From the NCBI RefSeq assembly GCF_014204325.1, contig NZ_JACHKT010000023.1:1-64000 (forward strand): a stretch of 64,000 nucleotides of DNA, read 5' to 3'. Shown here one piece after another: positions 538 to 1,595 of this stretch (position 1 is the stretch's first letter; each line of letters opens with the position of its first letter). The position numbers and the translations under genes were made by a program. This DNA comes from Arcicella rosea (GTDB taxonomy: Bacteria; Bacteroidota; Bacteroidia; Cytophagales; Spirosomataceae). The notes beneath the pieces were generated by a model. It made no database searches and was not told the origin of the DNA. It was given only the letters and a program-made list of their open reading frames with translations.

Positions 538-600
538 ACTCATGGCATGACTAGCAAAGAGTTGTTTATTTTCCAAATGAAGTGAAGTCATGCCATGAGT
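538..600. repeat. Inverted-repeat element, copy 1 (15-bp perfect arms)
   Basis: Left arm ACTCATGGCATGACT at 538-552 and right arm AGTCATGCCATGAGT at 586-600 are exact reverse complements around a 33-nt spacer. A second copy lies at 1472-1533. In both, the octamer TTGTTTAT begins nine bases after the left arm, so the two are diverged copies of one ~62-bp element and not chance palindromes. It could be a REPIN/MITE-type element or a paired structural RNA or terminator element. Confidence 0.85.
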
Positions 601-638
601 GATTAGGAGAGGCAAATCTATCTAAAAGAACCATCAAT

Positions 639-811
639 CCATCTCCGAGATGGAAGAACCTATCTTTTTGATAGGACGAGCTATCTAAAAGATAGGTTGC
701 CGAGTCTTTCTTGCGGTTTTTTGCGTGAAAAAGATAGGATGTCCTATCTCGGAGATAGGTTTGTCTATCTTTTTCACGCAATTTTCCGTATATATACGAA
801 GAAAACCGCAA
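639..811. repeat. Cluster of nested AGATAG/CTATCT hairpins
   Basis: Consecutive short palindromes: CCATCTC-C-GAGATGG (639-653), CCTATC-N5-GATAGG (659-675), CTATCT-AAA-AGATAG (681-695), then a large nested hairpin. That last one has 17-bp perfect arms TTGCGTGAAAAAGATAG (721-737) and CTATCTTTTTCACGCAA (765-781). Inside it sits CCTATCTC-G-GAGATAGG (743-759). Outer arms TTGCGGTTTT (711-720) and AAAACCGCAA (802-811) extend it, and the perfect palindrome CGTATATATACG lies at 787-798. In total this is about 170 bp of structure with no open frame of coding character. Confidence 0.85.
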
Positions 812-894
812 ATCGAAAATAGGAGGATCTCGTTACATGGGGCGATAATGGTAAGGGGAGTAACTCTTGTTAGTGTAAACATTCTTCCCAACTA

Positions 895-1422
895 CTAAAT
901 ATTAAAAATGTCTTTGAGTACTGAGTATTGGTTGTTTTCATTGATAGGCAAAAAATATTTTAATTGCCAACTTTGTGTTTTTACTGCTTGTTTATTCGTC
1001 GCAAGGTCCCAAGGGGGATAGACTCTAATGCCACGTTTTCCCTCTTTACCATCATTTGTTAGTATTCCATGCTCGGCTAAAACTGATTTTGGGAAAATAA
1101 ATTGTCCAAAGTTGTCTCCGCTTTTTGAGGTAATTATGATAAAGTCAAGGTCGTCAGTAGTGTTATATGGTGCTGTTATACCGTCTTTGTTTCTTTTCCA
1201 AATAGCAACAAACTGCCCTGTTTTTGTCGGAGTAATTTTAGATACACGAAATTGTATTTCCTTGCCATTTAGTTTGAATGAACAAGCTCCGTATGCTGCA
1301 CTTTCCGAATGCTGCTTCAAGTTGGTCAAATCCAAACCACATTTATCATACACTAATTCTTTCACAACTTTTAGCTCGCTATAAAATAGAGTAGGTAGTG
1401 TCAAAGTATTATCTGTTTCCAT
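895..1422 (-). CDS. mepB: MepB family protein
   Basis: Resembles MepB, the small protein encoded with the MepRA multidrug efflux system in staphylococci and found alone in many bacteria; its biochemical role is unknown. Typical family features are a central KITPTKTGQFVAIWKRN run, the motif FIFPKSVL, the run GKRGIRVYPPW, and the C-terminal KTQSWQLKYF. About 175 aa is a full family length. The ATG is the fourth codon of the open frame, whose first possible start is a TTG three codons upstream, so I chose the ATG. No mepA or mepR neighbour is present. The gene stands alone between two copies of an inverted-repeat element, which suggests a mobile or recently acquired cassette. Confidence 0.8.
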   Translation of the reverse strand: METDNTLTLPTLFYSELKVVKELVYDKCGLDLTNLKQHSESAAYGACSFKLNGKEIQFRVSKITPTKTGQFVAIWKRNKDGITAPYNTTDDLDFIIITSKSGDNFGQFIFPKSVLAEHGILTNDGKEGKRGIRVYPPWDLATNKQAVKTQSWQLKYFLPINENNQYSVLKDIFNI

Positions 1423-1471
1423 CTTGTTCAATCAGTTTCTTCAAAGACTAATTCAGTAGGTTACTCTTTTT

Positions 1472-1533
1472 ACTCATGGCATGACTAACTGCATTTTGTT
1501 TATGCTCAAAACAACCCAATAGTCATGCCATGA
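1472..1533. repeat. Inverted-repeat element, copy 2
   Basis: Second copy of the element at 538-600. The left arm ACTCATGGCATGACT is identical (1472-1486). The right arm AGTCATGCCATGA (1521-1533) matches 13 bases before diverging, with a 34-nt spacer. The spacer keeps TTGTTTAT at the same offset. The element sits just upstream of the mepB-like gene start, so the two copies bracket that gene and the hairpin cluster. Confidence 0.85.
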
Positions 1534-1595
1534 TTATTTATGAAGGATTTATGAAATCACTAATCCACAACTCACTAATTCACTCATTCACTCAA

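Follow-up and report, generated by a model that had tools for sequence, protein, structure and literature searches.

A dispersed palindromic repeat family in Arcicella rosea, very probably REPIN- or MITE-like

REPINs are inverted doublets of REP sequences with a diverse spacer, and are moved by RAYTs (Bertels and Rainey 2011, PMC3116915; Park et al. 2021, PMC8049555). They show the same contrast between conserved arms and diverged spacers (PMC3116915) that we describe below. In Bacteroidetes, atypical palindromes flank the tnpA-REP genes of subclass 2.6 (Quentin et al. 2018, PMC6006769). The literature collection searched contained no paper on palindromes in Arcicella. Here, we analysed a window of 64,000 nucleotides from the start of contig C23 of the 5.31 Mb Arcicella rosea genome (labelled G000), which contains two similar palindromic elements in neighbouring intergenic gaps. 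These are very probably members of a dispersed, non-autonomous REPIN/MITE-like family of palindromic repeats, and would add such a family in Bacteroidota, where palindromes tied to Y1 transposases were called atypical.

The preliminary description of this locus reported paired look-alike inverted-repeat elements with identical left arms and near-identical right arms, and this was borne out. Element 1 (538-600, unstranded, 63 bp) has two fully complementary 15-bp arms around a spacer of 33 nt; the left arm (538-552, plus strand) has the sequence ACTCATGGCATGACT, and the right arm (586-600, minus strand) is its exact inverted copy. Element 2 (1472-1535, unstranded, 64 bp) also has 15-bp arms (left 1472-1486, plus strand; right 1521-1535, minus strand), with one mismatch in the right arm (AATCATGGCATGACT) and a spacer of 34 nt. 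Minor corrections to that description concern the lengths, 63 and 64 bp instead of 62 bp, and the end of element 2, which is at 1535 and not 1533. The sequence TTGTTTAT is present at offset 24 in each element (562-569 and 1496-1503). Allowing up to two mismatches, the window contains 4 occurrences of the 15-mer ACTCATGGCATGACT, where shuffled sequence predicts 0.16. Folded as ssDNA, both elements are more stable than any shuffled sequence (z = -7.2 for element 1 and -6.1 for element 2). An Rfam search of the window gave no match at gathering thresholds, and a known RNA family was therefore dropped as the identity of the elements.

Both elements resemble copies elsewhere in the genome. Element 2 is 84% identical to a copy on contig C28 (position 65223). 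The left flank of element 1 (401-537, unstranded) is part of a longer repeat unit of approximately 200 bp found with a subset of copies; together with element 1 it is 76% identical to the flank of a copy on C19, and approximately 70% identical to the flanks of two copies on C7 (89290 and 184347). This longer left flank of approximately 130 bp is common to four copies in the genome. Exact core pairs of the form CATGGCATGACT-N33..35-AGTCATGCCATG occurred 8 times in A. rosea, and the reversed control pattern did not occur. With up to two mismatches per 15-mer, the arm matched at 66 places and the control at 7, and reading of the listed arm matches gave approximately 24 inverted pairs at this threshold. 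Every exact 15-mer (23/23) was paired with an inverted copy carrying no more than one mismatch. Most of these pairs had spacers of 33-35 nt (mostly 33-37 nt for the family), one had a spacer of 17 nt and one of 30 nt, and seven copies had a spacer of only 3 nt, forming a 33-bp hairpin. The copies examined were dispersed and all intergenic, whether the neighbouring genes were convergent, divergent or co-directional, and occurred in both orientations; folding as ssDNA gave hairpins with z from -6.1 to -8.7. The preliminary description would have given up its mobile-element reading had only two copies existed genome-wide with no variation among relatives; instead, there were approximately 24 pairs and a patchy distribution across genomes.

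Arms and spacers have diverged to very different extents. In the 16 long copies of A. rosea, the partner of a perfect arm was mismatched at 5/285 sites (1.8%), whereas spacers differed at 37% of positions on average, close to the 40% seen in shuffled spacers, with several subgroups of spacers still clearly homologous. Changes in the arms tended towards symmetry (ACTG..CAGT in the short copies, ATTC..GAAT in relative G005). Since the arms are nearly invariant while the spacers diverge, the simplest reading is that the arms are under selection, through mobility or binding.

Evidence for movement came from related genomes. The exact pair was present in 5/222 Spirosomataceae genomes from two genera, and absent from 4/8 Arcicella genomes, a patchy occurrence in relatives. 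In a sister species (G006), the core lies inside a 117-bp unit found at 7 sites with unrelated flanks, its copies being 90-99% identical, and one of these sites carries a second copy of the unit in tandem. The family has therefore moved, and this unit has been copied and dispersed in the sister species. Its outer ends are TAAGTGCTT..AGCACTTA, and it is bounded on both sides by TA, either as a duplicated TA target or as bases that belong to the inverted repeat. As a multi-copy, non-coding sequence with short TIRs, the 117-bp unit has the features of a MITE, whereas A. rosea shares only the core, with diverged spacers. A related unit occurs in G005 at 3 sites with approximately 95% identity, and identical arms are found inside quite different flanking units in A. 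rosea, G006 and G120. A doubled element at one G006 locus (L044) is present at the same positions in the Arcicella sp. MAG record of JANXRS (L114). At an orthologous site in G006 and G004 (L101 and L110), where 2.37 kb of flanking sequence is 90.5% identical, the unit aligns in opposite sense, which would reflect either a flip in place or two separate insertions.

The A. rosea copies are too diverged in their spacers to be recent, and direct evidence of movement comes from the relatives, not from this genome. We found no clean, precise empty site for either element of the window. Seven relatives keep the gene beside the C28 copy at 77-80% identity and lack the element at this place, one of them having an N gap; because a different gene lies on the opposite side, this locus was dropped as a precise empty site. 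One IMG/VR prophage contig carries a copy between structural genes; the element is absent from its prophage relatives, whose capsid-like protein is only approximately 50% identical. In this prophage gap (L153, 4500-5130) palindromes are nested, and the element lies beside inverted-order copies of CCGTGGTCTGTGGCACACAGAACACAAA with heptamer repeats around. We also searched for a parent element with the outer-end pattern TAAGTGCTTRGATA, which proved too short and noisy to be useful: its counts were similar to the control in Arcicella and exceeded it only in G120.

The preliminary description had suggested a check for a RAYT-type transposase gene, and one is present. A. rosea has six Y1 transposase genes, of which one, on contig C34, scores above the cut-off of the NCBIfam model for REP-associated tyrosine transposases. 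A decayed copy of the element lies approximately 0.5 kb from this gene and another 3.7 kb away on the other side. G005 and G006, which both carry the element, were the only genomes with relatives of the C34 RAYT at 80-82% identity; the carrier G004 (89% complete) has no relative of at least 80% identity, and the best in the carrier G120 is 48% identical. These data make a link between this RAYT and the repeat family suggestive. However, this gene, the only RAYT near a copy of the element, is itself bordered on each side by another family of palindromes, GTCGTAGG..CCTACGAC, and no copies were found within 1.5 kb of its G005 and G006 relatives; for these reasons we did not accept it as the proven cognate enzyme. 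No transposase with ends matching the arms was found. The palindromes beside the C34 RAYT (locus L031, 640-659, ~1176-1235 and ~1810-1880) occur with AGAGCGTCTCGCTCT on both sides of the gene, and probably form another REP family, one that has a transposase of its own.

Next to several of the elements or Y1 transposase genes, A. rosea has imperfect hairpin arrays with a 21/42-bp period. The hairpin cluster that the preliminary description placed between the two window elements is one of these; it is real, lies at approximately 607-811 and has a 21-bp periodicity. Others are at L010:1622-1897, L030:2203-2451, L031:826-1173 and L182:1105-1266, and their unit sequences differ. Several are stop-free in one frame, giving rise to spurious ORFs of 7-aa repeats. 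One orthologous intergenic gap is approximately 580 bp long in A. rosea (L182 on C39, 940-1523), where it contains a short element and a 42-bp array; in G006 (L101, 174-269) it is 95 bp long and contains another palindrome, indicating fast turnover of intergenic repeats.

The mepB gene reported between the window elements is also real (895-1431, minus strand; PF08877, E = 6.8e-52). The suggestion that the two elements are the ends of a composite mobile unit or recombination cassette around this orphan gene has in its favour that they flank exactly one conserved gene, and that the genome has three close pairs (<1.2 kb), where 0.12 would be expected under uniform placement. That expectation ignores the restriction of copies to intergenic regions, which raises the expected number of close pairs, and the other two pairs bracket quite different sequences: a tandem array on C7, and on C21 an unrelated 329-aa gene between one long and one short element. 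Other elements in A. rosea likewise adjoin unrelated genes. Homologs of mepB in G002, G004 and G005 (58-69% identity) are in other contexts and have no paired elements beside them, and in G001 the neighbouring PepSY-flavodoxin gene has neither mepB nor elements beside it. The spacers of elements 1 and 2 differ, so that these are not a recent duplicated pair. We therefore rejected a composite transposon around mepB, and consider any reading of the elements as the ends of such a unit highly improbable. Their position around mepB reflects two intergenic insertions that coincide by chance or, at most, mild clustering, and the two elements are independent members of the family rather than the ends of a mepB-carrying unit. 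Of the original interpretation, the mobile unit was not supported, while its REPIN/MITE-like part was upheld by the dispersed doublets, the near-identical G006 units, the patchy distribution and the Y1 genes.

Two further explanations were considered. The arms may be sites at which a host DNA-binding protein or recombinase binds; mobile units would carry these sites and not depend on them. The 15-mer contains an 11-bp near-palindrome (TCATG-G-CATGA), two such sites face each other at near-constant spacing, and the arms stay nearly invariant inside quite different flanking units (A. rosea, G006 and G120) while the spacers are approximately 37% diverged within A. rosea. The inversion of the unit between G004 and G006 would also fit. 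However, the position of the elements relative to genes is inconsistent, the arms are absent from most close relatives, and the same contrast of arm and spacer has been described for REPINs (PMC3116915); we regard this explanation as unlikely. In a variant of it, selection would keep the arms in place as facing protein-binding or recombination sites, between which the segment, or around which the unit, could flip, different mobile units having adopted the site. The inverted orientation at the orthologous site and the perfect arms around diverged spacers fit this reading, but both also fit a REPIN, and we regard it as similarly unlikely. It is very unlikely indeed that the elements act as bidirectional terminators of transcription, or as structures at mRNA 3' ends, and share sequence by chance: although they form strong hairpins in intergenic gaps, several of them between convergent genes, they also occur in divergent gaps, no regular T run follows the stem, and a terminator does not need a 15-mer that is invariant across two genera.

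We therefore favour the REPIN/MITE-like family. Every copy consists of two inverted ACTCATGGCATGACT 15-mers separated by a variable spacer, and as ssDNA would be able to fold into a hairpin with a 15-bp stem. The arms are probably recognised by a transposase that is provided in trans, and its requirement for them would keep them nearly invariant while the spacers drift. The copies form a small, countable set, and sister species differ in activity, the family being diverged in one and recently spread in another. This makes the set useful for asking which enzyme moves the copies. For mepB it has no special meaning.

In comparison with known systems, the elements look, and probably also work, like REPINs or MITEs. 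As in REPINs, a short conserved oligomer forms an inverted doublet around a spacer that is variable in sequence and near-fixed in length; the elements are intergenic, non-autonomous ssDNA hairpins with conserved ends and a diverged spacer, and the genome has a REP-associated tyrosine transposase gene. Unlike REPINs, there are approximately 24 copies rather than hundreds, and no RAYT was found with these arms immediately beside it. The ACTCATGGCATGACT arm and its consensus flanks also lack the GTAG/GTGG tag found at the stem-loop foot of canonical REPs. Subclass 2.6 (PMC6006769) is from the same phylum, and the RAYTs here have YIHQNP/YIHNNP motifs and similar lengths; in contrast, the palindrome beside the RAYT here is GTCGTAGG..CCTACGAC and not an ACTCATGG element. 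The BrickBuilt MITE of Porphyromonas gingivalis (PMC4596501) shares small intergenic units with terminal inverted repeats, and also minisatellite arrays, which are inside the element in BrickBuilt and beside some copies here; compared by description, the array period is 23 bp in BrickBuilt and 21/42 bp in A. rosea.
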